In this document: positions 14,394-30,274 of the stretch, one piece after another
Layout: the number at the start of each line of letters is the position of its first letter
Position numbering within the stretch: the stretch's first letter is position 1
Origin: a virus
DNA: 40,636 bases
Reading direction: 5' to 3' (one strand)
IMG/VR virus record: IMGVR_UViG_3300024969_000055
Span: 1-40,636 of that record
Translations under genes and position numbers: made by a program
The notes under the pieces: model-generated
Seen by the model: only the letters and a program-made list of their open reading frames with translations
Told to the model about the DNA's origin: nothing
The model's database searches: none

Positions 14394-14450
14394 AAGCCGT
14401 GAAATGTTTCACGGCCTTGAAGGATGAACTGCTTTTATTAGGCTAGGGCA
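14394..14450 (-). promoter_or_regulatory. Late promoter of the protease/capsid/tail operon
   Basis: Reading on the minus strand: TGCCCTAGCC, a -10-like TAATAA (14440-14435), 16 bases, then the dyad GCCGTGAAACATTTCACGGC (14415-14396). The arms pair over 9 bp around a 2-base centre. The same arrangement with the same spacing occurs at 17.5 kb and 30.2 kb, always just before a late operon. There is no good -35 box, as expected for a promoter driven by a Mor/C-type activator. The element is seen; its use as a promoter is inferred. Confidence 0.55.
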
Positions 14451-14469
14451 AAAATACTTTAGATGCAAG

Positions 14470-14790
14470 TTAGATTACTTCGCCCAATTCGACCGTCTGG
14501 CCCACCAACTCATGCGAACAGTCGGGCAGAAATTGCGCATTTCCGTCATTTATCCAAGAATGGCAACGGAACTCATGGTTTGTCGTTAAAACACTCGGTC
14601 TGATCGTAGGGCTTTCTGTGTCGCCATTCCACGTCCAGTTTCCAGTCCCTTCCCGTTTTCCTTTGATTATCACCGGTAGTGTGAGCTTTCCGGTAGGCCC
14701 TGGAATGTTCAGGGTCACATGGGTTGCTTCTTCGATTAAGCAATCCTTATAACCTTCTCCGTAAACCAACTTCACGGGCTTTGCTTTCAT
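14470..14790 (-). CDS. DUF6527 family protein
   Basis: A 106-residue protein with the DUF6527 signature: NWTWNGDTESPTIRPSVLTT, then RCHSWINDGNAQFLPDCSHE and a closing LVGQTVELGEV. The conserved His/Cys residues of the RCHSW and DCSHEL blocks look like a metal-binding or structural site. The family is frequent in phages, often beside fibre or lysis genes; its function is unknown to me. A GGAG ribosome site precedes the ATG. The gene sits alone between two strong hairpins, separating the fibre genes from the head genes. This is a cassette-like placement for an accessory gene. Confidence 0.8.
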   Translation of the reverse strand: MKAKPVKLVYGEGYKDCLIEEATHVTLNIPGPTGKLTLPVIIKGKREGTGNWTWNGDTESPTIRPSVLTTNHEFRCHSWINDGNAQFLPDCSHELVGQTVELGEVI

Positions 14791-14806
14791 AGTATCTCCG
14801 TTAATT

Positions 14807-14861
14807 ACACAATCGCATTATCCCCGCGCTCAACAGGAGCGCGGGGATAATGCGATTGTGT
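14807..14861. repeat. Perfect 25-bp inverted repeat with 5-base loop
   Basis: Arms 14807-14831 and 14837-14861 are exact reverse complements over 25 bp with loop AACAG. The arms start ACACAATCGCATTATCCCCG. The structure lies in the 109-base gap between two small accessory genes, just upstream of the DUF6527 ribosome site on the minus strand. No T-run follows on either strand. It would form a very stable RNA hairpin or DNA cruciform. Confidence 0.9.
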
Positions 14862-14899
14862 TGTTCAGCTTTCAGGGCCGCGCCCTGTTAGCTAATGCG
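14862..14899 (-). repeat. Leader repeat copy 1
   Basis: On the minus strand this stretch reads TAACGCATTAGCTAAC, a hairpin (CAGGGC-3-GCCCTG at 14887-14873), then GCTGAACAACAC. A second copy with the same order of elements lies at 15149-15194. The pair flanks the small gene at 14900-15106. Confidence 0.55.
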
Positions 14900-15106
14900 T
14901 TATACATCAATGCCGAAATGCATACCTATCATCCCTATATCCATAATTCCTATTGTGCTCGGGTCGTTTATCATTTCCCGTAATGCCTCGATACCTCCGC
15001 TAATTCCGGTGGCATTTGCAACCTGGCCAAGTTTACCTTTTTGATCCATATTTAAAAGGGCTGCTCTAAGCATGGTTTTCTTTGTCTCAAGTGTTACTGT
15101 TGCCAT
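14900..15106 (-). CDS. Small hypothetical accessory protein, 68 aa
   Basis: A small protein, 68 residues if started at MATVTLETKKTMLRAALLNM (15106) or 75 from an ATG at 15127; neither has a strong ribosome site. It has an amphipathic helix (KKTMLRAALLNMDQKGKLG) and a glycine/isoleucine/methionine-rich end (STIGIMDIGMIGMHFGIDV) that may be mildly membrane-active. No family is recognised. It sits alone between two copies of a leader repeat, in the accessory interval between fibre and head genes. Confidence 0.5.
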   Translation of the reverse strand: MATVTLETKKTMLRAALLNMDQKGKLGQVANATGISGGIEALREMINDPSTIGIMDIGMIGMHFGIDV

Positions 15107-15128
15107 AATGTATAACCCATCATTCAAC

Positions 15129-15194
15129 GTGAGCCGGATAGCTCACTGGTTTTGTTCAGCCGCGCGGTGCGGCCACGTTAATTATTGCGTTAGT
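15129..15194 (-). repeat. Leader repeat copy 2 with two hairpins
   Basis: On the minus strand: TAACGCAATAATTAAC, hairpin GCCGC-5-GCGGC (15173-15159), GCTGAACAAAAC, then hairpin GTGAGC-6-GCTCAC (15146-15129). The order and the flanking words match copy 1 at 14862-14899, where the last hairpin is replaced by the 25-bp one. This points to a duplicated or co-mobilised unit in front of each small gene. Confidence 0.55.
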
Positions 15195-15229
15195 ACGTAG
15201 AGGGCGCATCGCGAGGGTTGGGTTACGAT

Positions 15230-15946
15230 TTATAACTTAATGATGTAGTTAAGGGCTAAATAGGGCTGCATGACCGACACGTCATTTCCTGAGCCTGTAG
15301 GGGCGTTTTCCACGGTACCCGTAACCGTTACTGTGGTGGTAACGCCGCTCAAGGTAATAGGGGCTGCTTGTGCCGTGGCGGAAGGTAAATAAATGGCTGC
15401 GCTAATTGAACTTGGCGGAGCGTTCGGGGTACTGGTTAAGGTACACCCTTCACTAGCCACAGAGGAGCCGCCGCTGGTGGCAGTGCCGACCTTAATGTCA
15501 GTGGCGGCAGATACCTCCGTTAAATCCAGCGTGGCCTCATGGCTATGCGAGGGTAGCTGCGCCTCAGTAAGCGTCACACTTTCCGAACCGCCGCTGGCCC
15601 CCAAGGCATAGCCTGCGCCTGCGCCTATAACTGTATTACCTCGCAAGTCAGGTACATTGAACGTAGTACTTCCGTCACCGGCCCCGTAAGTTGTCTCTAT
15701 CACCGCAAACAGATTGGCGTCGGTTGTGCGTGATAGAGCTGAGCCGTCACAAATATGCCAGCCCGCTGGGCTTGTGGCCCCAGCGTACATGCGTATTTCC
15801 CCAGGCAACGTGCTCACGCCGAGATTAGCACGCGCCTCGGCGGCCGTTGTGGCGCCGGTGCCGCCATTGGCTACGGGTACAGCGTCACCATCTGCAAATT
15901 GAGCGCGGTGACCCTGGCTAATCTTTAAGGGCCGGACGTCAGTCAT
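15230..15946 (-). CDS. Phage tail-collar fibre protein
   Basis: A 238-residue adsorption protein. Residues about 55-105 are a tail-collar domain (PF07484 type): STLPGEIRMYAGATSPAGWH, ICDGSAL, TTYGAGDGSTTFNVPDLRG, GAGAGYALGASGGSESVTLT, LPSHSHEA. The GW.ICDG, F.LPDLRG-like and HSHE-type motifs are all visible. The N-terminal region (VPVANGGTGATTAAEARANL) is the repeat that ends phage fibre shafts. The C-terminal half is T/S/V-rich beta. It probably forms the fibre tip. It is the last of four fibre genes in this operon. Confidence 0.88.
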   Translation of the reverse strand: MTDVRPLKISQGHRAQFADGDAVPVANGGTGATTAAEARANLGVSTLPGEIRMYAGATSPAGWHICDGSALSRTTDANLFAVIETTYGAGDGSTTFNVPDLRGNTVIGAGAGYALGASGGSESVTLTEAQLPSHSHEATLDLTEVSAATDIKVGTATSGGSSVASEGCTLTSTPNAPPSSISAAIYLPSATAQAAPITLSGVTTTVTVTGTVENAPTGSGNDVSVMQPYLALNYIIKL

Positions 15947-15949
15947 AAA

Positions 15950-16546
15950 TTACGCTAAAACATCAATGTCCGAAGCTTGAAAGTTGACGTTTGTCGCTGA
16001 AGTAGCGAACCCGACAACCTGAATAACGTTTCCTGATCCTGATGGAGGGGTGGCAGAAGTGCCACCGGCGGTGGTGCTTAGATATTGCTTTCCAGGCGTC
16101 CGTCCTGTCACCGCATCGTTTGATCCTTCAAAGTACACCACCGCACTGGTCGGATGAGTAAACGACGCTAAAACAAATCCGTGAGCCTCTTTCCCTGCGG
16201 TTGTAGCGTCCGATTTTCTTACCTCAGCAGTGCCGGCGTTATCCCAGATATTGACAAGATCCCCGGCAGCCAGCGTTTCGGAAGTTGCAATCAATGATGT
16301 ATCCGGGCCCACACCGGTCGGCATAAAACTTAGATCCAGTCGACCACCAGACCCCAACGCAGGAACCTTGCCGGAATCACCCGCACCCGCACTGGTTGTT
16401 TTACTGTTTACGATGGAGGGATCAAGCACGCCACTAGCGTTAAGTGCGATAATTTTCCCTGCGTCAGCAGCTCCAGCGGATGTATCGTTGGAAGCGGTTT
16501 CGGTTCTAACACCATTAACTAAGGCTATATATTTTTTTCCGGCCAT
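15950..16546 (-). CDS. Putative tail fibre / receptor-binding subunit, 198 aa
   Basis: A 198-residue protein. Near the start a unit is present twice: TSAGAADAGKIIALNASGVLDPSI and TSAGAGDSGKVPALGSGGRLDLSF (consensus TSAGAxDxGKxxALxxxGxLDxS). This motif occurs in phage fibre shafts. The C-terminal half (GDLVNIWDNAGTAEVRKSDA, HGFVLASFTHPTSAVVYFEG, TPGKQYLSTTAGGTS) matches a small beta domain common on phage and capsular fibres. It lies between a collagen-like shaft gene and the collar fibre, so it likely belongs to the same fibre. Confidence 0.7.
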   Translation of the reverse strand: MAGKKYIALVNGVRTETASNDTSAGAADAGKIIALNASGVLDPSIVNSKTTSAGAGDSGKVPALGSGGRLDLSFMPTGVGPDTSLIATSETLAAGDLVNIWDNAGTAEVRKSDATTAGKEAHGFVLASFTHPTSAVVYFEGSNDAVTGRTPGKQYLSTTAGGTSATPPSGSGNVIQVVGFATSATNVNFQASDIDVLA

Positions 16547-16556
16547 GATTTTCCCC

Positions 16557-17075
16557 TTATAGGACGATTGGTTCTGAAATGTTAATTAAAAGTTTCGTTG
16601 TAGATATCGCCACACCAACCCGCTGTAAATAGCCGGATGTAGGTATGATCTGAGTAACCGTTCCTGAAACGGATAGATAAACCGGCTGATCAGCCGTCAG
16701 GCCGAAGAAACCGTCAAGCTCACTTGTGGTTGCAATATCCACTAGCGATCCTTGGCTTGCCGCGCCCGCTGTTATACCTATAGCGTTGCCGGCGGTTGTT
16801 ATATCTGCACTATCGGCATAGACGGCGGCAGCCGTTACAACGCGGTTTCCGCCCAGATCAATACCGGCAATGAGTTGTATTACTGAGCCGCCCGAAGCGC
16901 CTACAAGTGACACCAGCCATTCTGCCTCGGTACCTACAAAGCCGTTAGCCACGGCCGACTGATAGGCGCTGAGCCCAGGCGGCCCCGGAACCCCGACCTC
17001 AACCACGACCGACTCAGCAGAACCAGCCTCGACAGTAATAAGCTCCGGCTGCTGAATAATGACAACATCAGTCAT
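16557..17075 (-). CDS. Collagen-like tail fibre segment, 172 aa
   Basis: A 172-residue protein. After a short N-terminal strand region (VVIIQQPELITVEAGSAES) comes GPPGLSAYQSAVANGF followed by GTEAEWLVSLVGASG. This motif is widespread in phage fibres just after collagen-like GxxG repeats. The C-terminal part (FGLTADQPVYLSVSGTVTQI, LQRVGVAISTTKLLINI) is the small beta domain that often ends such proteins. Its ATG overlaps the upstream gene by eight bases. It probably forms a trimeric fibre segment joining the baseplate protein to the collar fibre. Confidence 0.75.
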   Translation of the reverse strand: MTDVVIIQQPELITVEAGSAESVVVEVGVPGPPGLSAYQSAVANGFVGTEAEWLVSLVGASGGSVIQLIAGIDLGGNRVVTAAAVYADSADITTAGNAIGITAGAASQGSLVDIATTSELDGFFGLTADQPVYLSVSGTVTQIIPTSGYLQRVGVAISTTKLLINISEPIVL

Positions 17076-17403
17076 GCGTCTGGTCTTCCAGCACGGCCAG
17101 CGCCGAGGATTCGTAGGTTTTCACCGTGCCGTCGGCATGCGTCACCTCAAGATCAAATTTATATGTACCCGGCGCCCAGGTAGCCGTTTCCGCCGCCGCC
17201 ACCGTCAACGTTAATTTGCCTGCCGTAGCGTCGACAACAATATCTCCGTTCACGGTTGACGCGGCATAAATCAGGGCCTTTGCGTTATTGCGAACATGCA
17301 GGCGCGCCGTTGCCCCGGACAGGTCAATCGGTTGTTTAACTGGATTTTTCAGCACCCAGACTCGCGACCAGGTATCGCCGCGATACAGTTTGGCTGCGTT
17401 CAT
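17068..17403 (-). CDS. BppU-like N-terminal fibre/baseplate adaptor
   Basis: I start at the ATG at 17403 (MNAAKLYRGDTWSRVWVLKN), because the longer frame to 17487 would put the start inside the promoter dyad. The 111-residue beta protein has the pattern LYRGDTW...PIDLSGATARLHVRN...TWAPGTYKFDLEVTHADG. I recognise this as the BppU/DUF2479-like N-terminal domain that anchors fibres to the tail tip. It is the first gene of the fibre operon. The ribosome site is weak. Confidence 0.7.
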   Translation of the reverse strand: MNAAKLYRGDTWSRVWVLKNPVKQPIDLSGATARLHVRNNAKALIYAASTVNGDIVVDATAGKLTLTVAAAETATWAPGTYKFDLEVTHADGTVKTYESSALAVLEDQTHD

Positions 17404-17467
17404 GCTGCTAACGGTAAGTGATGAAGTAAGTTCATGGGTAAAGCATACCCATGCCGAACGGGGTGAG

Positions 17468-17520
17468 TAAGACGTGAAACGTTTCACGTCTTAAGTAAGG
17501 CAGGTCGTTTTTATAGACTA
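17468..17520 (-). promoter_or_regulatory. Late promoter of the fibre operon
   Basis: On the minus strand: TTTTGCCATAGTC, -10-like TATAAA (17515-17510), about 16 bases, then a perfect 26-bp palindrome at 17493-17468 whose core is GACGTGAAACGTTTCACGTC. The 11 bases TTTGCC(A/C)TAG(T/C) before the -10 are shared with the 14.4-kb site. The dyad differs from the other two copies outside GTGAAA/TTTCAC, yet pairing is kept. No -35 match is seen. Promoter function is inferred from recurrence at three late operons. Confidence 0.58.
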
Positions 17521-17562
17521 TGGCAAAAAAAAGCACCACGCAAGCAAAACAGGAAAAGCCTA

Positions 17563-17871
17563 ATGATTACCCAAAGGTACCTTGAAAAATTAACTATTAA
17601 GCAATTGCAAGAGCTCAAGAACGCGGTAATTACATTAATCGCACAAAAAGAATCAGCGCCAAAAGTATTGCTTTGGCAAGTGTGTGATGAAGATATTGCC
17701 CTAGACTATTTTTTAGAGAAAGACTACCTAAAGGCAGCCGAACACCTGCTTAAAACAGCTCAGGAATATGCAGCGAATCCAGACATGAATAATCTGGATA
17801 AAAGACTCGAGCTTACGTATATCACCATACCCGAATCAGAGATGAAACATTACCCCATCAATCCCAGTTAG
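17563..17871 (+). CDS. Small hypothetical protein, 102 aa
   Basis: A 102-residue plus-strand protein, divergent from the fibre operon. An AGGAAAAG ribosome site is eight to ten bases before the ATG. The N-terminus is helical (YLEKLTIKQLQELKNAVITL) and the middle has a helix-turn-helix-like repeat pattern (DIALDYFLEKDYLKAAEHLL), reminiscent of a single TPR-like hairpin. It is acidic and A/T-rich compared with neighbours. It has the look of a lysogeny-expressed accessory gene (moron), since it lies alone beside the repressor. The function is unknown. Confidence 0.6.
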   Translation: MITQRYLEKLTIKQLQELKNAVITLIAQKESAPKVLLWQVCDEDIALDYFLEKDYLKAAEHLLKTAQEYAANPDMNNLDKRLELTYITIPESEMKHYPINPS

Positions 17872-17880
17872 ACCGCATTC

Positions 17881-17924
17881 AAAACCCCTTCAAAAATCGA
17901 TATAAGGCGCTTCGAGGGTTTTTT
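17881..17924 (+). terminator. Possible terminator after the 102-aa gene
   Basis: AAAACCC (17881-17887) pairs with GGGTTTT (17916-17922) and the sequence ends in a T-run. The loop is long (28 bases), so this is a weak candidate. Confidence 0.35.
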
Positions 17925-17991
17925 AATGGCTCAGTACGCATAAACGCCTAACGCGCCCGTGACGGCCTATTTTTACAACATCCGGAGCAAC

Positions 17992-18147
17992 ATGAAAGCA
18001 GGGTTAATTTTTCGCTGGGGCAGCTGTTGGATAGGCGCCCATTGGTCGCCTTATAACAAACGGCTGTGTATTAACCTGGTGCCTTGTGTGACGATCTGGG
18101 TAACGATACCGGGCGGCGTTGAGCCAGCTTGTACGTTAAAACCATGA
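17992..18147 (+). CDS. Small conserved phage protein, 51 aa
   Basis: I start at the ATG at 17992 (MKAGLIFRWGSCWIGAHWS), preceded by a CGGAG-like ribosome site; a longer frame exists but has none. The 51-residue product with W-G-S-x-W-I/V-G-A-H, Y-N-K-R-L-C-I-N-L-V-P-C-V-T and WVTIPGG blocks matches a small protein found near the regulatory or early regions of various phages. Two Cys and several Trp suggest a compact fold. The function is not known. It is downstream of, and could be cotranscribed with, the 102-residue gene. Confidence 0.6.
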   Translation: MKAGLIFRWGSCWIGAHWSPYNKRLCINLVPCVTIWVTIPGGVEPACTLKP

Positions 18148-18148
18148 T

Positions 18149-18170
18149 GGTGCGCGGTGCGCACCCTACT
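18149..18170. repeat. GGTGCGC/GCGCACC dispersed palindrome
   Basis: GGTGCGC (18149-18155) and GCGCACC (18159-18165), followed by CTAC, form a hairpin. The word GTGCGCACCCTAC recurs at 29410-29422. It separates the convergent 51-residue and TPR-like genes and could stop transcription from both sides. Confidence 0.5.
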
Positions 18171-18173
18171 GAG

Positions 18174-18602
18174 CTAACTCAATTTACGAGCACGTTGTTC
18201 TATTTTTCGCTGCCTGGTATTAAGCAACACAATTTCATCATCAATGATTTTACGGTAAGTATTTCTCTGCGTTTTCGATACTTTGGCAAAGCCGCCTTTT
18301 TGCCGCCAACCCCATTCTTTATACAAAAGCTCTCGGGCATCGGCAGTTATATCGACATCATCATAAAGTCCCTGAAGCCAACTAAGCGCCTCTTCATACC
18401 GATCAGCCAGATGATGGTAACGTGCCAGCCTGAAATAAGTTTTGATAGGCCACTCGGTTGAGCAAGTCGTCATTAACGCATAAGCTTTTGACAAGCTGCC
18501 AATGGCAGCATCGTAATCTTTATCATTGGCTTGTACCGTGGCCCTTTTCAACAGGTTACGGATTTCTTCATGATCTACATCATTGCCGGTTAATCCGAGC
18601 AT
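18174..18602 (-). CDS. TPR-like protein downstream of the repressor, 142 aa
   Basis: A 142-residue helical protein in the same orientation as the repressor, 34 bases after it, so probably made in the lysogen. Helix pairs with TPR-like A/G/Y spacing are visible: ATVQANDKDYDAAIGSLSKA, YFRLARYHHLADRYEEALSW. A basic helical tail follows (QRNTYRKIIDDEIVLLNTRQ). TPR proteins mediate protein contacts. A role in superinfection exclusion or lysogenic control is possible but is a guess from expression context. The plus-strand frame over it is a shadow. Confidence 0.65.
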   Translation of the reverse strand: MLGLTGNDVDHEEIRNLLKRATVQANDKDYDAAIGSLSKAYALMTTCSTEWPIKTYFRLARYHHLADRYEEALSWLQGLYDDVDITADARELLYKEWGWRQKGGFAKVSKTQRNTYRKIIDDEIVLLNTRQRKIEQRARKLS

Positions 18603-18636
18603 ACTTTCCCCCGTTTAAAATCTATCTGTTTAAATC

Positions 18637-19329
18637 TCACCACTCATGCATCGATGCAACAACTCGTCCAATCACCGCCATATCCAAAGCCTCATTCGAT
18701 AAATCCACTTGATATGGAGCAAAGCCAGCATTAAAGCTACAGACCTGTACCATGCCTTGCGGCAGCAATTGCAGGTTTTTAACCAGCAGATGCCCGTCTA
18801 TTCTTAGTACGTAAGTCTTACCGCTTGTGACCGTTGTCTGCGAACGATCAACTAGCACCATGTCGCCATCCTTAAGGTAAGGTTCCATAGAATTACCGCT
18901 CACATCCACAATCGCCAGCATGTCGGGAGATAAATGCCGCGTCGCTAACCAATCACGCCGAAATGCTAACGGCTGCAGCTGTTCTTCAGTCCCATTAATC
19001 GCTCCGTGCCCAGCGGCTACCTGCACGTTATAACGGGGTACGGCAGAAAATTCGTCACTTTCGTAATTACTATGCTTATACGACACCGGGTGTGTAGACG
19101 GGGATATTGTTTTATACGGAGTAGTGCTTGGCGAGAGCATATGCTCAATATCCATATTATGTGAATACAAATATTCGATTAATTCATCATAAGGGATAGA
19201 GCCGCGTTGCTTTCTATTCGAATACGCAGTAGGACTAATGCCAAGGCATTCAGCAATAGCCTTATCACTTCCAAGACCTACGGCCTTAGCGAATCTGCTC
19301 ATCACTAGATCAAAAGAATTAATCCCCAT
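18637..19329 (-). CDS. Phage repressor, S24/LexA-like with autocleavage domain
   Basis: A 230-residue CI-type repressor that should keep the prophage silent. Residues about 8-65 are an XRE-like helix-turn-helix (SDKAIAECLGISPTAYSNRK). Residues about 100-215 are an S24 peptidase domain. A predicted Ala106-Gly107 cleavage site lies in NVQVAAGHGA. The catalytic serine is S147 (SGNSMEP) and the general-base lysine is K184 (HLLVKNL). All needed residues are present, so RecA-stimulated self-cleavage, hence SOS induction, is likely. This differs from Mu itself, whose repressor lacks this domain. It is divergent from Ner across a 152-base control region. Confidence 0.92.
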   Translation of the reverse strand: MGINSFDLVMSRFAKAVGLGSDKAIAECLGISPTAYSNRKQRGSIPYDELIEYLYSHNMDIEHMLSPSTTPYKTISPSTHPVSYKHSNYESDEFSAVPRYNVQVAAGHGAINGTEEQLQPLAFRRDWLATRHLSPDMLAIVDVSGNSMEPYLKDGDMVLVDRSQTTVTSGKTYVLRIDGHLLVKNLQLLPQGMVQVCSFNAGFAPYQVDLSNEALDMAVIGRVVASMHEW

Positions 19330-19344
19330 TATCCATTAAACGTG

Positions 19345-19373
19345 TTGACATCCATCATTGATGGATTTATTAT
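19345..19373 (+). promoter_or_regulatory. Early promoter with operator in the spacer
   Basis: TTGACA (19345-19350), a 17-base spacer and TATTAT (19368-19373) form a near-consensus sigma70 promoter pointing at the Ner/early operon. The spacer contains a perfect dyad, TCCATCA-T-TGATGGA (19351-19365), placed to be covered by the repressor. It lies 16 bases from the repressor start, so a repressor bound there could also affect its own gene. Confidence 0.75.
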
Positions 19374-19380
19374 TCAAACC

Positions 19381-19405
19381 GTTGGTAAAAAAATTATTTA
19401 CCAAC
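19381..19405. promoter_or_regulatory. Second dyad GTTGGTAAA/TTTACCAAC in the control region
   Basis: Arms GTTGGTAAA (19381-19389) and TTTACCAAC (19397-19405) are perfect over 9 bp with a 7-base A/T loop. They lie just downstream of the early -10 box. The dyad could be a Ner operator or a 5' leader hairpin. Confidence 0.55.
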
Positions 19406-19416
19406 CCCAAAAAAAT

Positions 19417-19453
19417 AGCGGCAGCTCACTGTCCAAAGCTAACTGCCGCTTTC
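19417..19453 (+). terminator. Leader hairpin AGCGGCAG/CTGCCGCT
   Basis: Arms 19417-19424 and 19443-19450 pair over 8 bp (18-base loop) and are followed by TT only. It lies in the leader of the early transcript, before the Ner ribosome site. It may act as an attenuator or as a weak terminator. Confidence 0.4.
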
Positions 19454-19481
19454 CCGTTACAACTTTATAGGAATTGTCATT

Positions 19482-19763: not shown

Positions 19764-19787
19764 TGGTCGCTTTTTTTAAAGCTGAAC

Positions 19788-20063: not shown

Positions 20064-20141
20064 AACCGTAATCCTTATTGAGAGCAAAACCCATGAATTT
20101 AAACGACAGCATTAGTTTAAGCGGCCAAGCGGGTTTAGTCA

Positions 20142-20615: not shown

Positions 20616-20617
20616 TC

Positions 20618-21241: not shown

Positions 21242-22274
21242 TTTAAAACCACGCCAAGCACAGGATCGCCGGGCCGTGGGCGAGTTGTCCAACGCTACAC
21301 CTCCAGCGCATGTTGCGGCCTTGCTGCAAGCGGAAGGTATGAATTACGACCCGGCTGCATTTGCTGCGATGACACTTGAGCAGCACACCGAGGAAGCATT
21401 TAAAGGCTTAAAGGCTTCCGTATTAACGGCTGTTTATAGTGGGATGCACTTTGTACAAGTGTTAGAACTCTCCAATCGATTGGAGAGTTCTAACAAACAC
21501 TTCATTAAGGAAGAAGCTGATCGTCGAGGAGTTGCAATCCAAACACTTTACAACATGATCGATGTCTACAAGCTCTTTTGCCGCAGTCCTGAGAAATGTG
21601 TACACGCGTTTCCTCATATTGGTATTACGAAGTTAATAGAATTTAAAAGCTTCGATGAATCCGACCTGGAACAACTCGCCGAAGGCCAGGAAGTCTACGG
21701 CATCACCCTGGAAACCGCGCAACGCTACAGCGTCCGCGAATTAAAAAGCGTCCTGCAAAGCCACCGCGCCGAAGTCAAAAACCTGAAACAGCGCATCCTG
21801 GACGCCGAAAAAAAGATGAATGTCGAAGCCGACAAAGCCGCCGAGCTGCTGGCCGAAAACCTGGACCTGAAAAAGCTAAGCCCGGAACGGCGCTCATTCG
21901 TGGCGCTACGCAAGCAACTGTTCGAAGACATGGAAACCCTACAAGGCATTGTGGTACGCGCCCGTAAGACCTACGAGCTGTCTAAAAACTTCCAACAAGA
22001 AGTGCAGTATGAGGCACAAGAGGCTGTTATCTATCCATTGATCCATTTGCTGAGCGTGATGCACGGCAATTCCGAGTTAATCATGGAAGATTGTTATATG
22101 ACTTGGGGCATCGATCCGGCCATTCCGGTTAACCCGCCGCAACCCAACAGCATGACGCATGAGGAGCGTTGGGCGGCTCAGGAGTCGGCTCGGTATCAAG
22201 CGGCATTAACCGAGCTGCACTTTCCTACGGCTAAAAAACCAAAAACTAAAAAAGATAAGGGTGACCAGTCATGA
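21234..22274 (+). CDS. DUF3102-like early protein upstream of transposase, 346 aa
   Basis: A 346-residue, mostly helical protein. Residues about 35-130 have a nucleoid/partition-associated look (AFKGLKASVLTAVYSGMHFV, FIKEEADRRGVAIQTLYNMI with a helix-turn-helix of the kind seen in DUF3102). A coiled coil covers about 175-215 (LQSHRAEVKNLKQRILDAEK). It directly precedes and overlaps transposase A by four bases, so it is translated with it. It may assist target choice or replication, but that is inference. A perfect 36-bp DNA palindrome lies within codons 76-87. Confidence 0.6.
   Translation: MTDLKPRQAQDRRAVGELSNATPPAHVAALLQAEGMNYDPAAFAAMTLEQHTEEAFKGLKASVLTAVYSGMHFVQVLELSNRLESSNKHFIKEEADRRGVAIQTLYNMIDVYKLFCRSPEKCVHAFPHIGITKLIEFKSFDESDLEQLAEGQEVYGITLETAQRYSVRELKSVLQSHRAEVKNLKQRILDAEKKMNVEADKAAELLAENLDLKKLSPERRSFVALRKQLFEDMETLQGIVVRARKTYELSKNFQQEVQYEAQEAVIYPLIHLLSVMHGNSELIMEDCYMTWGIDPAIPVNPPQPNSMTHEERWAAQESARYQAALTELHFPTAKKPKTKKDKGDQS
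21460..21495. repeat. Perfect 36-bp palindrome inside a gene
   Basis: Every base of 21460-21495 pairs with its mirror around the centre at ATC|GAT; one half-site is TGTTAGAACTCTCCAATC. It encodes part of ELSNRLESSNK in the gene before transposase A. Perfect symmetry of this length inside a coding sequence is unlikely by chance, and it has no T-run. Confidence 0.95.
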
Positions 22275-23974: not shown

Positions 23975-23980
23975 TAGCTT

Positions 23981-24034: not shown

Positions 24035-24057
24035 CAACTACAAGAGAGATTATACCG

Positions 24058-24270: not shown

Positions 24271-25241
24271 TGAGTACCCCAGAGATTGCTTACAAATCGA
24301 CCTATAGCGATGAAGACAAGTTGATGGTGCAACGCATTAATGCCTGGTTAGCGGAGCCCGGCAGAACGGGTGCCGATTTATCGCGGTTGACTGACATTAA
24401 AGAGGGTACCCGTAGCAGCATCTTAACCGGCGCTTATATCAGTTCGCCGACCAAATTTTTGCAGCGCATGATTGATGCGATCGAACGCGTTGACGCACGG
24501 AACCAAGCTGCGAAAAACGAGATTCCGTATACCGAAACCAGTGTCGCGGTGCAGATCGAGGCGGTATGCAAACGTACGCATGTCGACCGGGATTTCGGGT
24601 TTTTCTCCGGCAAGGTAGGCGTGGGTAAAACCACGGCATTGCGCAGTTATGCCCGTAAAACCCAATCAGCCATTCTGTTAGAGGCTTTTGAGGGTATCGA
24701 TAACTCGACATTTATCCAGGAGCTGATTACGGCGACCGGTTCGGTCGCGGTTAAAGGCACTCAGGCTCAGCAAATGGCGGGGCTGATTAAGTCGCTGAAA
24801 GGTTCTGACCGGGTGATCCTGGTTGATGAAGCCAACTGGTTGCCTAAGCGCAGCTTTGGCGCTCTGCGGCGTATATCGGACGTTGCCGAGATCGGCGTGG
24901 TGCTGGTCGGTACCGCTGAGCTGTTGCCGATGGTGCAAGACCCTGAGGGACGGTTTGGACAGATCAGTAGCCGCATTGGGTTTTGGCCGGCACTGGCCAA
25001 GCAGATCAGCGAAAAGGACTGTGCGCTATTGGTGACCAGTTATTGCGCTGAGGAACTGCCAGACGCGGTTTTGAAGGCGTTTTACGGATGTTGTGAAGGC
25101 AGCGCCAGGACGTTGAAGAATCTGCTTAAAAACACCTACCGGTACGCGAACAAGAACAACGCCGACATTACGCCGGAGTTGATCAAGCGCATTAACCAGC
25201 AGGCTATGGCCGGGCGCGGCTTTGTGACGGGAGGTGCATGA
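24270..25241 (+). CDS. MuB-like AAA ATPase
   Basis: I use the ATG at 24270 (MSTPEIAYKSTYSDEDKL), which overlaps the previous stop, instead of a GTG seven codons earlier. The 323-residue ATPase delivers target DNA to the transposase and protects phage DNA from self-insertion in Mu. A helix-turn-helix region (residues about 18-55, GADLSRLTDIKEGTRSSILTG) precedes the AAA core. Walker A is GKVGVGKTTAL with K120; Walker B is ILVDEAN with D186 and E187. A lid helix follows (QIIS...EEL..AVLKAFYGC). The family and order match Mu B. Confidence 0.93.
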   Translation: MSTPEIAYKSTYSDEDKLMVQRINAWLAEPGRTGADLSRLTDIKEGTRSSILTGAYISSPTKFLQRMIDAIERVDARNQAAKNEIPYTETSVAVQIEAVCKRTHVDRDFGFFSGKVGVGKTTALRSYARKTQSAILLEAFEGIDNSTFIQELITATGSVAVKGTQAQQMAGLIKSLKGSDRVILVDEANWLPKRSFGALRRISDVAEIGVVLVGTAELLPMVQDPEGRFGQISSRIGFWPALAKQISEKDCALLVTSYCAEELPDAVLKAFYGCCEGSARTLKNLLKNTYRYANKNNADITPELIKRINQQAMAGRGFVTGGA

Positions 25242-25513
25242 TGGAGACCGTAAATTCTTTTGAGATTAATGCAATGGCGGGCGGCAAGAAAAATTACGCC
25301 GCCAACCGGTTGAGAACCGATCCTGCTTTTCCCCAGCCGATTATAGAGCAGAACGGTTTCCCATCGGTTTGGATTAAAAAAGAAATTGAGGCCTATTTGG
25401 CTAAGCAAGCCGCCAAGCCTAAAAAGCATGCAAAGCAAAACATTGTGCCGCGAGCCAAACTGGATTTGACGCTGGCACAGCACTTTATCCGTCGTCCCAA
25501 AAGCATCATTTAG
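25238..25513 (+). CDS. Small early protein, winged-helix-like, 91 aa
   Basis: A 91-residue protein whose ATG (25238, or the next at 25241) lies on the stop of the ATPase, with GGAGG just upstream. NYAANRLRTDPAFPQPI, then QNGFPSVWIKKEIEAYLAKQ resembles the excisionase/AlpA-type winged-helix pattern (a wing of 'RlG..adAPkP...g...W...dI..yl'). The basic tail suits DNA binding. It is probably an early regulator or recombination partner. The family call is tentative. Confidence 0.6.
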   Translation: MMETVNSFEINAMAGGKKNYAANRLRTDPAFPQPIIEQNGFPSVWIKKEIEAYLAKQAAKPKKHAKQNIVPRAKLDLTLAQHFIRRPKSII

Positions 25514-25524
25514 CAGAGGTTGTT

Positions 25525-26001
25525 ATGTTGAAAACTATCATGCATTTTTTCAGTCATCCGTTAGCAGCGATCCCGCCTCTTGTAGAAATAGGGCCTGCCA
25601 TTGATTGGACGGCTGTTTACCGGCAACTCGATGTTAAGTACGGCCTCGCTCAGCACGGTGTTAATGGTTACCTGTTCATGCGCGCCCCGGAGCAAAACGA
25701 GTACTGGATAAAGTTCTTTTTTGCCAATGAGGTGTTATTTAAAAACCGGGTTGGCCTGCATTTTTTTATCAGCCACGATCCTGAGCACATTGTCAACGTG
25801 CTGCGGGAGAATAAACGGACGCCTTTTGTCTCCGAGCTGATGTGCAGCAGTCAGGTAGAGCGGATCGGCGATAGCGCATCATCGTTGATCCAGCCCAGGC
25901 GCTGCAAGCAGCTGCGTGATGTCGCCTTTAGAAATGGCCGTTATATCCAACCGGTCAACCGGCATCGCATTAACCCACGGTTTAAAAGGGCGCACGGATG
26001 A
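25525..26001 (+). CDS. Hypothetical early protein, 158 aa
   Basis: A 158-residue protein, start preceded by AGAGGTTG. Mixed alpha/beta with aromatic clusters (EIGPAIDWTAVYRQLDVKYG, EYWIKFFFANEVLFKNRVGL). The C-terminal 50 residues are basic (RRCKQLRDVAFRNGRYIQPV). No family is recognised. It ends at 26001 just before a short coding-like stretch (25998-26030) that overlaps the next gene. It is within the early transcript, so expression with A and B is likely. Confidence 0.55.
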   Translation: MLKTIMHFFSHPLAAIPPLVEIGPAIDWTAVYRQLDVKYGLAQHGVNGYLFMRAPEQNEYWIKFFFANEVLFKNRVGLHFFISHDPEHIVNVLRENKRTPFVSELMCSSQVERIGDSASSLIQPRRCKQLRDVAFRNGRYIQPVNRHRINPRFKRAHG

Positions 26002-26029
26002 CGACTGTATGGACACAGGAGGTAGAGTA

Positions 26030-26611
26030 ATGCAGGAGCGATTACCGAGAAACTGCACTATTCAGTGCCCGTATTGCAATAGCTCTGTCGATGTGATCAT
26101 GGCAATAGAAGTGCTGACGGGGAATGAGTGGACAGAGCTATTACAGGGCATCCCTTTATCGATGGTCGGCGTGTTACTGCGCTATTTGGAATTGTTTAAG
26201 CCGCTGAAGCAGGACCTGCGTTGGTCGCGGCGATTAACCCTGACCAAGGAATTAATGCCGATGATCAAGGCGGCGCAAGTCAAACGTAACGGCATTACCT
26301 ATGCCGCTCCGTTACCGGTTTGGGAGGCGGAAATGCTGAGAATGGCGGCACGTCCGCCCACGCTCACCCTGCCGTTAACGGGGCATGGCTACCTGTTGAA
26401 GGTATTAGCCAACAAAGGCGAGCAAAACGCGGCGGCACTGGAAAAGGCAGTCGATCAACAGCGGCAGCACCGGGTTGTCTCTACCGGTAGCAATACCACA
26501 TTACCGCCGGTCGATAAAAACCACGCGGAAAAATTAATGGCGGAAGCCGAACGCAAACGACAGGAGCGTAAACCACCCCCCAATGATTGGAAAGGCGCAG
26601 TAGGGAAATAA
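26030..26611 (+). CDS. Zinc-finger-bearing early protein, 193 aa
   Basis: I choose the ATG at 26030 (MQERLPRNCTIQCPYCNSSV), as AGGAGG ends eight bases before it; an in-frame ATG at 26009 lacks such a site. The N-terminus holds CTIQCPYC, a half zinc-ribbon with three Cys. Then comes a helical region (GIPLSMVGVLLRYLELFKPL, LTLTKELMPMIKAAQVKR) and a linker ending in a K/R/P-rich tail. A replication- or transcription-linked role is plausible from the zinc motif and early position; no family is recognised. Confidence 0.6.
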   Translation: MQERLPRNCTIQCPYCNSSVDVIMAIEVLTGNEWTELLQGIPLSMVGVLLRYLELFKPLKQDLRWSRRLTLTKELMPMIKAAQVKRNGITYAAPLPVWEAEMLRMAARPPTLTLPLTGHGYLLKVLANKGEQNAAALEKAVDQQRQHRVVSTGSNTTLPPVDKNHAEKLMAEAERKRQERKPPPNDWKGAVGK

Positions 26612-26643
26612 CCTTAAAACAACTTTTAAACCGAGATTAAACC

Positions 26644-27345
26644 ATGACACAAGAAACGCTAATTAACCCCACCGATTTATCCGAACAACAACTGCTGGAT
26701 TTATTAAAAGCCAGACAGCAAAAGACCGAGCAAGACCGTCAAGCCTATAAAGACCTGGTCGGCTCTACGGTGCCGCCTGCCGTGCAACGCTTGATGGATG
26801 TCTCCGCCCTGCTGATTGAAGCCAAAAAGGAAACCTTTGACTATTTCCGAGGCATTTTGGAGCTGAAGGCATCGGTCTATAGCGCCGATAAAAAAGACCG
26901 TAAGAACGAGCAGCAAAGCCATACGTTCTCAACCGATAAATACAGTATCACTATCGGCTACCGTGTTAACGATGGTTGGGACGATACGGTGTCCGAGGGG
27001 GAGCAAAAGGTTAATGTCTTTATCGAGTCGTTGGCCAAAGACGAGGACTCGGCCAAACTGGTGCAAACCATCTTTAAGCTGCTTAAAAAAGATCAAAAAG
27101 GCAACCTGCGGGCCAGCCGCGTGTTGGAGCTACAACAGTTAGCTGAAAAGTTCAATAACGCTGAGTTTACCGATGGCGTTAAAACCATCCGTGAGGCCTA
27201 TCGTCCGGTCCGGACGTGCTGGTTTATCGAGGCCTATTTTATTAACGACAATAAAGAAAAGGTCTCGATCCCGCTGTCTATCTCATCGGTGGATTTTCCT
27301 GACGGGTTTGAGTTTGACTTTTCTTCGACTGAGGAGGCGGCATGA
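26644..27345 (+). CDS. DUF3164 family early protein
   Basis: A 233-residue protein with the DUF3164 pattern: PTDLSEQQLLDLLKARQQKT at the start, then QRLMDVSALLIEAKKETFDY, SITIGYRVNDGWDDTVSEGE and a C-terminal RPVRTCWFIEAYFINDNKEK. The family is nearly confined to Mu-like and related phages and lies in the early region upstream of GemA, as here. Its function is not established. It overlaps GemA by four bases, so the two are coupled. Confidence 0.85.
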   Translation: MTQETLINPTDLSEQQLLDLLKARQQKTEQDRQAYKDLVGSTVPPAVQRLMDVSALLIEAKKETFDYFRGILELKASVYSADKKDRKNEQQSHTFSTDKYSITIGYRVNDGWDDTVSEGEQKVNVFIESLAKDEDSAKLVQTIFKLLKKDQKGNLRASRVLELQQLAEKFNNAEFTDGVKTIREAYRPVRTCWFIEAYFINDNKEKVSIPLSISSVDFPDGFEFDFSSTEEAA

Positions 27346-27824
27346 GCCAGGCTAAACATGCCCAGGTCGATAACCGCACCCGTTATTGCCAGTTGCTGGC
27401 AATCGGCAAAGCACAATTAGGTTGGGACGAAGAGTTTTACCGGGGTATTTGGTTGCCGCTGCAAGGTGCGACCAAAGATGCCAAGGGCCGCTATTCGGCT
27501 ACGACGATGACTATCGGCCAACTATGCCAAGCGGTTGAGCGTATGAAAGATTCAGGCTTTAAGCCGACCGGTAGCGGCGGAAAAAAGTTTACTCATACCG
27601 ACAAAGACTGGCGAGCGCCGCGCATTGCCAAGCTTAATGTGATGTGGCTAGCGATGGCCGAGGCCGGTGTTGTCCAGGATGAATCCCAGGACGCTTTGGA
27701 GGCGTGGTGTAAAAACCACCATAAAAAAGACCGGCTGCAATGGGCCAGCTCGCAAGAACTGAATGCCTGCATTGAGCAACTGAAAGCCTGGGCCAGGCGC
27801 TGCAATGTCAAACTTAATCACTGA
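27342..27824 (+). CDS. gemA: GemA / Mu gp16-like regulator (DUF1018)
   Basis: A 160-residue protein of the GemA family (DUF1018): RTRYCQLLAIGKAQLGWDEE, FYRGIWLPLQGATKDAKGRY, then KFTHTDKDWRAPRIAKLNVM and AWCKNHHKKDRLQWASSQEL. In Mu, gemA changes DNA supercoiling and host gene expression during growth. It directly precedes Mor and overlaps it by 20 bases, the same pairing as in Mu-like phages. Confidence is high on family, lower on exact role. Confidence 0.85.
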   Translation: MSQAKHAQVDNRTRYCQLLAIGKAQLGWDEEFYRGIWLPLQGATKDAKGRYSATTMTIGQLCQAVERMKDSGFKPTGSGGKKFTHTDKDWRAPRIAKLNVMWLAMAEAGVVQDESQDALEAWCKNHHKKDRLQWASSQELNACIEQLKAWARRCNVKLNH

Positions 27825-28221
27825 AGCCGAGCTGGACGCGGTCAATGCCGACTTGCTGCCGCCCCAGGCGCGGCAGTTGGTGCGTTTGATCGGCATGGCC
27901 CACACGCTGACGCTGCTGGAAAAGCGCGGCGGCGTGACTTTGCGGATTCCGGTTAATGCCCATCAGGCGGAGGTATTGCCGGGCATTTTGCCGATGGACG
28001 CCATTGTAAAGCTATGCGCCGCCATGCCGGGGCAACGGCTGGAACTGCCCAAGGTCGACAAGATTGTAAAGCAGCTCCGCAATGCGGTGATGCGGGCTGA
28101 GCGCCAAGAGCTGTCGGCGTCTCGCGTGGCGTTGCGGCATGATCTGAGCCGCCGCCAAGTGATTAATATTTGTCATCCTGTCGCCGATGAGCGGCAAGTG
28201 GATTTGTTTGAAGAACTTTAG
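27805..28221 (+). CDS. mor: Mor-type transcription activator of late genes
   Basis: A 138-residue protein of the Mor/C family. PPQARQLVRLIGMAHTLTLL, EKRGGVTLRIPVNA and a C-terminal helix-turn-helix (SASRVALRHDLSRRQVINIC) match family members, which dimerise and activate weak-minus-35 promoters. It is the last early gene; no separate C gene is seen in the window, so it may do the work of both Mor and C. The three late sites with weak -35 boxes are natural targets. A terminator-like hairpin lies 50 bases after it. Confidence 0.85.
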   Translation: MSNLITEAELDAVNADLLPPQARQLVRLIGMAHTLTLLEKRGGVTLRIPVNAHQAEVLPGILPMDAIVKLCAAMPGQRLELPKVDKIVKQLRNAVMRAERQELSASRVALRHDLSRRQVINICHPVADERQVDLFEEL

Positions 28222-28222
28222 G

Positions 28223-28255
28223 AGACCTTCCAGGTTTTAAAAACCTGGAAGGTCT
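28223..28255. repeat. Perfect 33-base hairpin AGACCTTCC...GGAAGGTCT
   Basis: Arms 28223-28238 and 28240-28255 are perfect over 16 bp around a single A. The inner arms are A/T (GGTTTT/AAAACC). It is directly after Mor. Palindromes of this exact kind (AGGTTTT...AAAACCT between GACCTTC/GAAGGTC) recur in many bacterial chromosomes, so it may be host-derived. Confidence 0.85.
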
Positions 28256-28272
28256 GGATGGCTAGAAATGTA

Positions 28273-28295
28273 GGGCGCAGTGTGCGCGCCTTTTT
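28273..28295 (+). terminator. Terminator-like hairpin after Mor
   Basis: GGGCGCA (28273-28279) pairs with TGCGCGCC (28283-28290) and is followed by TTTTT (28291-28295). It could end the early transcript before the DUF genes. The word TAGGGCGC is a variant of the GTAGGGTGCGC dispersed repeat. Confidence 0.55.
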
Positions 28296-28310
28296 AATAG
28301 GAGATAATCA

Positions 28311-28502
28311 ATGGCAGATGATGCAGACAAAGTGGAGGCGTTAAGCGACATGACACGTCAATCCAACATGTACAACAGCCGACGCGATGAGCCGCAAGCG
28401 GTAGCGATCGGCGAGTGTTTATTTTGCGGCGAGCCGGTAGAAAAGGATCGCCGTTGGTGTGATGCGGCTTGCCGCGATGATTGGCAAAGGGAGAATGACT
28501 AA
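28311..28502 (+). CDS. Small zinc-ribbon protein, 63 aa
   Basis: A 63-residue protein with AGGAG upstream of its ATG. The C-terminal half is CLFCGEPVEKDRRWCDAACRDDW, a four-Cys treble-clef ribbon (CxxC...CxxxC) like the DUF2116 zinc ribbons of phages. It may bind nucleic acid or a partner. Its end overlaps the next start (TAATG). Confidence 0.75.
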   Translation: MADDADKVEALSDMTRQSNMYNSRRDEPQAVAIGECLFCGEPVEKDRRWCDAACRDDWQREND

Positions 28503-29206
28503 TGACAGATGCTGAACTAAAAAAAATCGCGACGAAAATAGCTAAATGTTTGGCTCTGGCCGCATCCGATAATCCTGCTGAAGCTGAAACGGCTAAACGT
28601 CAAGCGGATGCCCTGATGAATAAATACAACTTGACCAGTGGCGACGTGGCTGCAAGTCAAGTCCATGAAAAAACCAGCAAAGCCGGCGGCAAATACAATC
28701 CTCCACAATACATGACACAGCTGTCCGCTTTGATTGCTCAAGCATTTGGCTGCGGCCCCGTATTCAGTTCAGGTGGCGGCTATAACGATAGCCTGATGTA
28801 TTTCATAGGGCCGGGGATAAAGCCGGAACTCGCGGCATATACCTTTGACGTCTTACACCGCCAGATAAACAAAGACCGCGCCACCTATACCGCTACTTTA
28901 AAGCGCTATAAACGGGAAAATAGAATCCGCATGGCTGATATCTTTTGCAATGCATGGGTAACGCGTATCGCCTATCAAGTCCGTGAGTTCGCCGGAACCG
29001 AACAGGATAAGACGGCGATTGCCGCTTACAAAGAGCAACGCTGGAGCGGCGATTTAGTTAAAGATCAGCGCAAAGCGGTAGAACCTAAAAAAGATTCAGA
29101 CTGGAAATCCGTTACTGCCGGTTATCAGGCGGCTAAAGATGTATCCCTGCATAAACCAGTGCAAAGCAAGCGCAGCACTTATTTAACAAATACCCAGAAT
29201 GATTAA
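28502..29206 (+). CDS. DUF2786 family protein
   Basis: A 234-residue protein. Residues about 3-45 are the DUF2786 motif (KIAKCLALAASDNPAEAETA, RQADALMNKYNL), found in phage and bacterial proteins near replication genes and of unknown function. The rest is a helical region (MTQLSALIAQAFGCG, ELAAYTFDVLHRQINK) and a basic tail. It lies between the early and late operons in Mu-like phages. It shares a one-base overlap with the zinc-ribbon gene. Confidence 0.85.
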   Translation: MTDAELKKIATKIAKCLALAASDNPAEAETAKRQADALMNKYNLTSGDVAASQVHEKTSKAGGKYNPPQYMTQLSALIAQAFGCGPVFSSGGGYNDSLMYFIGPGIKPELAAYTFDVLHRQINKDRATYTATLKRYKRENRIRMADIFCNAWVTRIAYQVREFAGTEQDKTAIAAYKEQRWSGDLVKDQRKAVEPKKDSDWKSVTAGYQAAKDVSLHKPVQSKRSTYLTNTQND

Positions 29207-29207
29207 C

Positions 29208-29399
29208 ATGGCAAAAGTAACTTTTACCTTAGAAGACACTCCGAACGGCACTCTGATCAAGAGCGATCCGGGCTTGGAACAACTGGTCGTCCTGGCGCAA
29301 AGTGACGGCCAGGCCACCAATGCCCACGGCTACGCACTGGTAGTATGGCAGGCGATTTGTGAGGCAGCGAGTAAAGGTTCGGCTGTTAAGATTCATTGA
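29208..29399 (+). CDS. Small hypothetical protein, 63 aa
   Basis: I prefer the ATG at 29208 (MAKVTFTLEDTPNGTLIKSD) over one three codons upstream. A 63-residue beta-alpha protein with an acidic start and helix at the end (GYALVVWQAICEAASKGSAV). This type of small protein is common next to DUF2786 in Mu-like phages. The function is unknown. A perfect 18-bp palindrome follows it. Confidence 0.65.
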   Translation: MAKVTFTLEDTPNGTLIKSDPGLEQLVVLAQSDGQATNAHGYALVVWQAICEAASKGSAVKIH

Positions 29400-29404
29400 A
29401 GTAC

Positions 29405-29422
29405 GTAGGGTGCGCACCCTAC
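29405..29422. repeat. 18-bp palindrome GTAGGGTGCGCACCCTAC
   Basis: A perfect 18-bp palindrome at the 3' end of the DUF gene block and beside the oppositely oriented moron gene. The same words recur at 18156-18169, and a variant is in the terminator at 28273. It belongs to a dispersed family and may serve as a two-way terminator. Confidence 0.8.
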
Positions 29423-29442
29423 ACGGCTAAGGTAAGTGCGGA

Positions 29443-30066
29443 TTATATGTTTATTTCTTTTACGATGCGCTCATCGCTAAGAAAGCCTCTCATGATCAAT
29501 TTATAGTTTGAGTAGTGCTTGGCATCAAATACAAAATAGGTTTTATGTGTAACTCCGGGCTCTACCTTTACGCTTTGCCCGCTTTCATAGTTCATTTGAT
29601 ATTTAGCATAAACACTATAGGAAGACGATTCATATTGTCGGCCATCAGCCGTTAATACCAAGTTTGAATGAATATATTGGGCTTTGTTGCTGATATTTGT
29701 TGCTTCGAACTCAACCACTATGAAAGTGCCATTGCTTGGGTGTTGCGGATTGTCGGAACTGCCCAACTCGCTAAACGCATGAACATTAACGATGCTCCAT
29801 TCAAAGCCATCTAACCTAAACCGTTCATACTGTTTGTTAAAGGTAGGTTTAGTGGAAGCTATTTGGCTTCGGGGTCTAACAGATGTTGTTGCGGGCGCAA
29901 TTGAATATATACCGGCTAAATGGCGGGCATTTTCAACGTGAATAATGCCGTTCTGGCGGCCTTTACCGGTTGACAGGCCTAAATCTCTGTCTGTTTGCGC
30001 CCGTGCCCCTGGGTTGCCTAAAGAAATCCCAGGGATGATAAGTAAGATCAAAAAAAGTATTTTCAT
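29443..30066 (-). CDS. Secreted DUF4352-like protein (moron)
   Basis: I start at MKILFLILLIIPGISLGNPG (30066), a clear signal peptide with hydrophobic core at residues 2-17; the longer frame lacks it. The mature part (207 residues in all) ends in an Ig-like DUF4352-type domain: FEWSIVNVHAFSELGS, TFIVVEFEATNISNKAQYIH, YESGQSVKVEPGVTHKTYFV. It is on the strand opposite to every neighbour with its own promoter, so it is likely expressed from the prophage as a periplasmic or surface protein. The G/N/Q-rich region after the signal may be a linker. This is a lysogenic-conversion candidate. Confidence 0.72.
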   Translation of the reverse strand: MKILFLILLIIPGISLGNPGARAQTDRDLGLSTGKGRQNGIIHVENARHLAGIYSIAPATTSVRPRSQIASTKPTFNKQYERFRLDGFEWSIVNVHAFSELGSSDNPQHPSNGTFIVVEFEATNISNKAQYIHSNLVLTADGRQYESSSYSVYAKYQMNYESGQSVKVEPGVTHKTYFVFDAKHYSNYKLIMRGFLSDERIVKEINI

Positions 30067-30119
30067 AGTTATAACGGCTTTTAGCTGGAGAATTAATTTA
30101 GGCGTTTGAGTGAATACAA

Positions 30120-30148
30120 AGTCTAAAATAAAGCAGTAAAAATGTAAA
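30120..30148 (-). promoter_or_regulatory. Promoter of the secreted moron
   Basis: On the minus strand TTTACA (30148-30143), 17 bases and TAGACT (30125-30120) fit a sigma70 promoter about 50 bases ahead of the moron start. The -10 is only partly consensus. Confidence 0.4.
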
Positions 30149-30194
30149 AAGTGTCGATTTAGCTGAGCGGTGTAATACCAGTTAAAGAAAGCAG

Positions 30195-30274
30195 TTGACA
30201 CCCAGCCGCTAACTCCGGCATCCTAATATCCGACCCTTCAAACCCAAGGCGTGAAACATTTCACGCCTTTTTTT
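30195..30274 (+). promoter_or_regulatory. Late promoter of the lysis/packaging operon
   Basis: A -10-like TAATAT (30224-30229) is followed after 16 bases by AAGGCGTGAAA-CA-TTTCACGCCTT (30246-30269) and a T-run to 30274. TTGACA at 30195-30200 is 23 bases from the -10, too far for unaided sigma70 use. The arrangement matches the sites at 14.4 and 17.5 kb in order, spacing and dyad core. Because of the T-run the dyad here could also be a terminator of read-through. Confidence 0.55.

Follow-up and report, generated by a model that had tools for sequence, protein, structure and literature searches.

In phage Mu the activator Mor binds two 5-bp inverted repeats in the middle promoter Pm, a 16-bp element that is centred at -43.5 and replaces the -35 hexamer (PMC4390567), and C binds a related dyad in four late promoters (PMC4287176). 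Here we analyse a dyad that heads late operons in an IMG/VR virus record (IMGVR_UViG_3300024969_000055; 40,636 bases, the whole of which is referred to as the window) with the gene set of a Mu-like transposable siphophage. Judged by its conservation in sequence, the dyad is a real and widely conserved late-promoter element with a half-site and geometry of its own, and it is very probably the box of a phage Mor-type activator, with the promoter lying downstream.

Each dyad consists of two 5-bp inverted repeats within 14 bp, separated by a four-base middle (Table 1). When up to two mismatches are allowed the form occurs at only three places in the window (six strand-hits), and 100 shuffled sequences gave a mean of 0.45 hits and at most 3. 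A preliminary description of this DNA had noted the three dyads, the late operon following each of them (lysis/terminase/portal, tail-fibre-like, and protease/head/tail), and a TTTTGCC(A/C)TAG common to both minus-strand sites. All of this holds, and by the shuffles the dyads are unlikely to be there by chance; the outer arms likewise differ and still pair, as had been described, and read AAGGC/GCCTT, AAGAC/GTCTT, and AGGCC/GGCTT (the last with one G.U), and a late-promoter element shared by the three operons is supported. The 16–17 bases that had been given between TAATAT/TATAAA/TAATAA and the dyad run to the outer arm, the distance to GTGAAAC itself being 21–22. Overlooked was a -10-like hexamer, followed by a start codon, 3' of each dyad and at equal spacing at all three sites.

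Relatives of the window were surveyed upstream of the protease gene, using 6 loci from a single-protein scan and the best 80 of at least 508 relatives from an alignment scan, to which nine named phages were added. Seventy of the 86 loci were used; the 16 omitted (L010, L011, L018, L021, L024, L031, L037, L046, L050, L052–L056, L058, and L066) were mostly identical or near-identical sequences, a comparison that covered all but L031 and L053, and the sequence upstream of L089 was too short. No relatives emerged when viral_contigs was scanned with single proteins, the window Mor and the phrog_1084 protein. With a dyad defined as GTGAA-N4-TTCAC-like (at least 7 of 10 core letters plus 4 paired bases), 30 of 79 protease-upstream windows contain one compared with 2 of 465 control windows, and in 26 of these 30 the start codon begins at base 44–48 past the dyad centre. 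The protease-upstream windows of B3, PM105, D3112, Mu, RcapMu, phiSHP3, and YPCBV-1 have no site by this definition; in YPCBV-1 a variant repeat can be read by eye ahead of both late operons. A separate set of bacterial genomes, searched at the same thresholds over a region extended by 5 bases on either side, yielded 11 dyads among 79 loci (of 80; L194 is without a gene start) versus 1 in 471 control windows.

The strongest feature of these sites is a hexamer of the form NANNNT (A second, T sixth) at a fixed distance from the dyad. It starts 32, 33, or 34 bases past the centre at 12, 10, and 9 of the 30 protease sites, where about 1.5 would be expected at each offset, and every other offset from 14 to 59 accounts for 0–3 sites. 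All 30 protease-upstream sites have it at 32–34 (for example TATTAT in the window, CACAGT in TJ1, and CAAAAT in L008), as do all 11 sites of the separate bacterial-genome set. Where the start codon is 61–90 bases away the spacing between dyad and hexamer is unchanged: the lysis sites of KS10 (TAACCT) and TJ1 (GAGACT), which precede annotated lysis genes, and similar sites in records G018 and G019 (GACATT), G021 (GACACT), and G004 (CATCCT) keep it at 32 or 34 with the ATG at 73–90. Because the distant-start sites hold this spacing, the hexamer is tied to the dyad and not to the ATG. The hexamer is also found at all 23 listed non-protease sites, and at 19 of 21 perfect-core non-protease sites that had not been picked, in at least one orientation and with a chance expectation of about a quarter; the two perfect-core sites without it fall within reading frames.

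We could see no good -35 word at the matching place at any of the three window sites. With the hexamer placed at -12 to -7, the implied dyad centre is -43.5 for an offset of 32 and -45.5 for an offset of 34, the former being the position of Mor at Mu Pm (PMC4390567), with the start reckoned here from the hexamer. In sites of the TJ1/G018 type, positions -35 to -30 read ATGACC or near it, 17 bases from the -10.

The arrangement shares with Mu Pm two 5-bp inverted repeats, a recognisable -10, and the lack of a -35 (PMC4390567, PMC4287176). It differs in that the Pm element spans 16 bp and has a G/C-rich spacer of six bases, whereas here there are 14 bp, a GTGAA half-site, and a four-base middle, and because of this it is not a copy of the Pm element but would only resemble it in its working; furthermore, Pm is a middle promoter whereas these boxes directly head late operons. 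There is a further parallel with Mu Plys, PI, PP, and Pmom, where several late operons share one dyad that is bound by a Mor relative and located upstream of the -35 position (PMC4287176, PMC4461284), and lysis and protease I operons are headed in this way both in Mu and here. In contrast to the window, where one Mor/C gene was found, Mu has two, and no GTGAA dyad by our definition upstream of its protease gene. The earlier statement that no element of this form is described was thus too strong, given the Mor/C dyads of Pm, Plys, PI, PP, and Pmom (PMC4287176, PMC4390567).

The same dyad and hexamer spacing precede lysis, protease, and tail genes in Burkholderia phage KS10 and Curvibacter phage TJ1, which differ from the window in having the -10 at 32 rather than 34, a shorter dyad stem, and no strict upstream motif (see below). 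The element is not mentioned in the available portion of the KS10 paper (PMC2628397), and no description of it was found in the accessible parts of the open-licence literature searched.

The proposed ligand of the boxes is a Mor/C-type activator encoded in the window, which matches the phrog_836 late transcriptional activator with an E value of 1e-25. Its predicted structure has a mean predicted local distance difference test (pLDDT) score of 84, and Foldseek ranks Mu C in complex with RNA polymerase (9l0x) first, with a weak E of 0.31; Mu Mor comes lower in the list (1rr7, E 3.4; 9l0y, E 6.1). A Mor/C-like protein is present in all nine named phages and in 17 of 21 other records, and in two additional groups of 29 records each the Pfam Mor model matched 19 and 13; short contigs are numerous in these groups, and a few of their records also belong to the first set. 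The third letter of the half-site also appears to go with one position in the recognition helix, the second R or Q of S/T-x-R/Q. Arg accompanies G in 19 entries and A in 2, and Gln accompanies A in 5. Fisher's p is 0.0003 when related phages are treated as separate entries and L088, which combines Gly and G, is excluded from the two-by-two table; the pattern is suggestive of a link between activator helix and box letter. As the preliminary description proposed, a Mor-type protein is the likely driver, and the sequence comparisons support this.

Several observations weigh against this interpretation. No Pfam family matches the window Mor at E 1e-3, and a PDB sequence search with it returned 7 matches to E 10, none of them Mor or C. 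VIA-align scores (Z 5.4–5.6 over 48 residues) lie below that for DeoR (6.0) and are level with those for other helix-turn-helix domains. Mor was not found in four of the 21 records (G001, G010, G012, and G013), which may be fragments, and two of these, G010 and G012, nonetheless gave dyad sites. The link between helix and half-site is broken by L007 and L016 (A with Arg); moreover, a tree built from Mor minus the columns compared shows 4 letter changes and 3 residue changes, and of its independent pairs only 2 are supported, one of which agrees while the other does not differ. The 23 listed non-protease sites were chosen after the hexamer table was known. Finally, dyad pairing in the subgroup of the window extends past the 5-bp half-sites, beyond what an activator box needs, and a conserved motif upstream of the dyad falls outside the explanation.

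If the dyads are activator boxes, a dimer of the phage's own Mor-type protein would bind each of them immediately before the -35 position of a sigma-70 promoter that has a poor -35 and a NANNNT -10 at 32–34 past the centre, and would recruit or activate the polymerase of the host in the manner of Mu Mor and C. The steps that we infer are Mor binding, the start site, leaderless translation, and the masking of the start codon when RNA is read through from upstream.

In the window the predicted start of transcription coincides with the start codon, since base 46 after the dyad centre is both the predicted +1 and the first base of ATG, ATG, and GTG at the three sites. At the tail-fibre-like operon this ATG opens an 11-codon leader peptide, located between the predicted start and the operon. 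A four-letter Shine-Dalgarno word between -18 and -4 is missing from all 26 protease starts and all 9 other starts of this kind, but is found in 106 of 264 crude control reading frames of the same phages (first-ATG frames of at least 200 codons on both strands, spurious ones included) and 5 of 12 starts that are 61–90 bases away. L072, L075, L077, and L012 were dropped from this test, and the protease starts of KS10 and TJ1 were taken 1–2 bases off, with no Shine-Dalgarno word either way. The annotated TTG protease starts of these two phages (L091 18120 and L092 18593) are upstream of the ATG predicted by spacing and may be misannotated. Because the start codon falls on the predicted +1 and Shine-Dalgarno words are absent, the late mRNAs are rather likely to be leaderless, with transcripts in the window that would begin on the start codon itself; many Mu-like phages share this layout, in which late messages would start on or beside that codon.

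Around each -10 of the window there is in addition an inverted repeat of 7–8 bp whose right arm includes the start codon (shuffle p <=0.01 each; Table 1). RNA arriving from upstream would fold it, with the energies of Table 1. RNA begun at the start codon cannot, the corresponding energies being 0, -0.6, and -0.8 kcal/mol for the protease, tail-fibre-like, and lysis sites. Such repeats reach p <=0.05 (200 base shuffles) at 13 of the 27 protease sites and 9 of the 23 others, L072, L075, and L077, whose dyads are 56–70 bases from the start, having been dropped; with 22 of 50 sites at this level the repeat is common, not universal. Tentatively, the repeat might lock the start codon in read-through RNA, such that only the Mor-started transcript is translated, and together with the terminator at the lysis dyad these repeats may act as guards against read-through. 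Similar structures were noted at lysis-type promoters (L091 7601 on the minus strand, L146 29281, and L147 9869), where a hairpin or terminator lies over the -10 and predicted start; these include an 11-bp stem in KS10 and terminator-like stems in G018 and G019.

In insertion sequences, a start codon can be masked by a hairpin that forms only in RNA coming from outside. The window would resemble this in that the hairpin hides the start only in outside-started RNA, and would differ in that it flanks a phage late promoter whose proper mRNA would be leaderless.

Terminator-like elements were scored near the dyad at 8 of 61 sites. Intrinsic terminators end just 5' of the dyad at two TJ1 sites (read by eye) and at one site each in G011 and G021 (also scored), and overlap it at the window lysis site, two G004 sites, and L193; neither minus-strand dyad of the window is among the terminator-like elements listed for the window. 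At the TJ1, G011, and G021 sites the terminators end just before the dyad and thus disfavour a hairpin in a 5' untranslated region, and at the window lysis site RNA started upstream would meet a terminator because the dyad itself is one.

A sigma-70-like motif, TTGACN-17/18-NANNNT, does lie upstream of the dyad at 12 of 51 sites by a strict rule (shuffles gave a mean of 0.34 and at most 3; L072 and L077 were dropped from the scan). It is often followed by ATAA, and contains or touches the -10 of the preliminary description. That -10 (TAATAT/TATAAA/TAATAA) was itself considered and set aside, as it is 22–23 bases from TTGAC/TTGC and a hexamer of the NANNNT form is preferred at 17–18. The dyad stem is longer where the downstream hexamer is at 34 than where it is at 32, with positions 10–12 paired in 15, 9, and 13 of 18 sites and in 8, 4, and 4 of 32 sites, respectively. 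Since the upstream motif does exist in the subgroup of the window, RNA that starts from it and holds the dyad hairpin may also be made.

The alternative that survives best extends the activator-box reading by having both promoters work: upstream RNA would be non-productive, terminated at the dyad or locked at its start codon, and Mor bound to the dyad would block the upstream promoter while turning on the downstream leaderless one. The upstream motif, the terminator at the lysis dyad, and the start-codon hairpins at all three window sites fit such a scheme, which is rather unlikely; the strict motif is missing in 39 of 51 sites, and its transcription is an assumption.

Considerably less probable is the arrangement first proposed for this DNA, in which the promoter is upstream and the transcript carries the dyad as a 5' hairpin at about +10. 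The strict motif at 12 of 51 sites, the window lysis site included, the longer stem of the hexamer-at-34 sites, and the covariation of the window arms within one genome, one G.U included, would all fit it, and a hairpin-only reading has in its favour the arms that covary with G.U pairs in L006 and L008. It is rejected as the main reading on account of the terminators just before the dyad and of the hexamer that stays tied to the dyad at distant starts. A promoter limited to the upstream position is further opposed by the absence of the strict motif from the KS10, TJ1, G011, G018, G019, and G021 sites, by terminators before the dyad (TJ1, G011, G021) or over it (window lysis, G004, L193) that would stop its transcript, and by the downstream hexamer at every protease site. 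Thus, neither the upstream promoter nor a general 5' hairpin near +10 was borne out, the conserved -10 of the relatives being downstream of the dyad: a search of Mu-like relatives recovers the dyad with its fixed downstream hexamer, and the upstream motif at 12 of 51 sites only. The alternative wording of the dyad as an operator came closer, in that a binding site is near to an activator box.

Least probable is an operator for a host or phage repressor silencing the late genes in the lysogen, for which GTGAAACGTTTCAC, which we take to resemble LacI-family operators, would count, but a fixed spacing to a weak -10 is the layout of an activator site and a Mor-type gene is present in most of the dyad-bearing records examined.

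The window encodes on its plus side transposase, a DNA transposition protein, the Mor-like activator, lysis genes, terminase, portal, and a DNA methyltransferase, and on its minus side protease, major head, tail tape measure, and fibre-like proteins; a CI-like repressor is on the minus strand. The head and tail genes are to the left of the repressor and the lysis/terminase/portal genes to the right of Mor, and late genes are found on two strands in KS10 and TJ1 too, the opposite way round. Because the closest protease relatives in the genome collection are from Methylococcaceae assemblies (63% and 61% identity), a methanotroph host is possible. Other repeats include a perfect 36-base palindrome in the early region (21460–21495; TGTTAGAACTCTCCAATCGATTGGAGAGTTCTAACA), a perfect 18-base palindrome (29405–29422; GTAGGGTGCGCACCCTAC) between the end of the early operon and the minus-strand frame 29443–30201, and a 20-bp stem with a five-base loop (14812–14856) in the gap separating frames 14470–14790 and 14900–15127. 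No known Rfam RNA family matched in the window at gathering score.

Table 1. Predicted late-promoter features of the window (positions in the 40,636-base stretch).
Feature	Position	Strand	Detail
Mor-type activator box (predicted), protease/head/tail operon	14399..14412	-	centre 14405.5; GTGAAACATTTCAC
Mor-type activator box (predicted), tail-fibre-like operon	17474..17487	-	centre 17480.5; GTGAAACGTTTCAC
Mor-type activator box (predicted), lysis/terminase/portal operon	30251..30264	+	centre 30257.5; GTGAAACATTTCAC
Predicted -10, TATTAT	14367..14372	-	bases 34–39 after dyad centre
Predicted -10, TATGCT	17442..17447	-	tail-fibre-like operon
Predicted -10, CACACT	30291..30296	+	lysis/terminase/portal operon
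ATG of head maturation protease, predicted +1	14358..14360	-	base 46 after centre
Leader peptide MNLLHHLPLAA (11 codons), ATG at predicted +1	17400..17435	-	stop overlaps next ATG
GTG start of first lysis-operon gene, predicted +1	30303..30305	+	
Inverted repeat TCGTGGGT/ACCCATGA around -10, ATG in 3' arm	14357..14379	-	-10.9 kcal/mol in read-through RNA
Inverted repeat CATGGGTA/TACCCATG holding ATG	17433..17453	-	-12.2 kcal/mol in read-through RNA
Inverted repeat AGTCACA/TGTGACT holding GTG	30288..30308	+	-7.9 kcal/mol in read-through RNA
Mor/C-type activator gene, proposed box ligand	27805..28221	+	138 residues
Intrinsic terminator overlapping box	30246..30269	+	10 bp stem, T-run
Upstream sigma-70-like motif TTGACA-18-CATCCT	30195..30224	+	meets strict rule
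Upstream sigma-70-like motif TTGCGT-17-TAGTCT	17515..17543	-	by eye; below strict rule
Upstream sigma-70-like motif TTGCAT-17-TAGCCT	14440..14468	-	by eye; below strict rule

For the many phages known only as sequences, the activator-box reading would provide a readable late-promoter code (box, 32–34 bases, -10, start codon) from which their late operons and sites of transcription initiation can be predicted; it also points to a link of activator helix residues with box letters. More surprising is the part concerning leaderless starts and their locking. It may be, and we propose it with reserve, that in a broad group of Mu-like phages a single activator box directs leaderless mRNAs for capsid, tail, and in some cases lysis genes, and that in RNA begun elsewhere a hairpin or terminator often encloses the start codon or the promoter. 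As these structures would form only in foreign-started RNA, the late genes would therefore test the origin of their own transcript, with only Mor-started mRNA being translated. If true, this would be a simple way for a prophage to silence its capsid and lysis genes under read-through.

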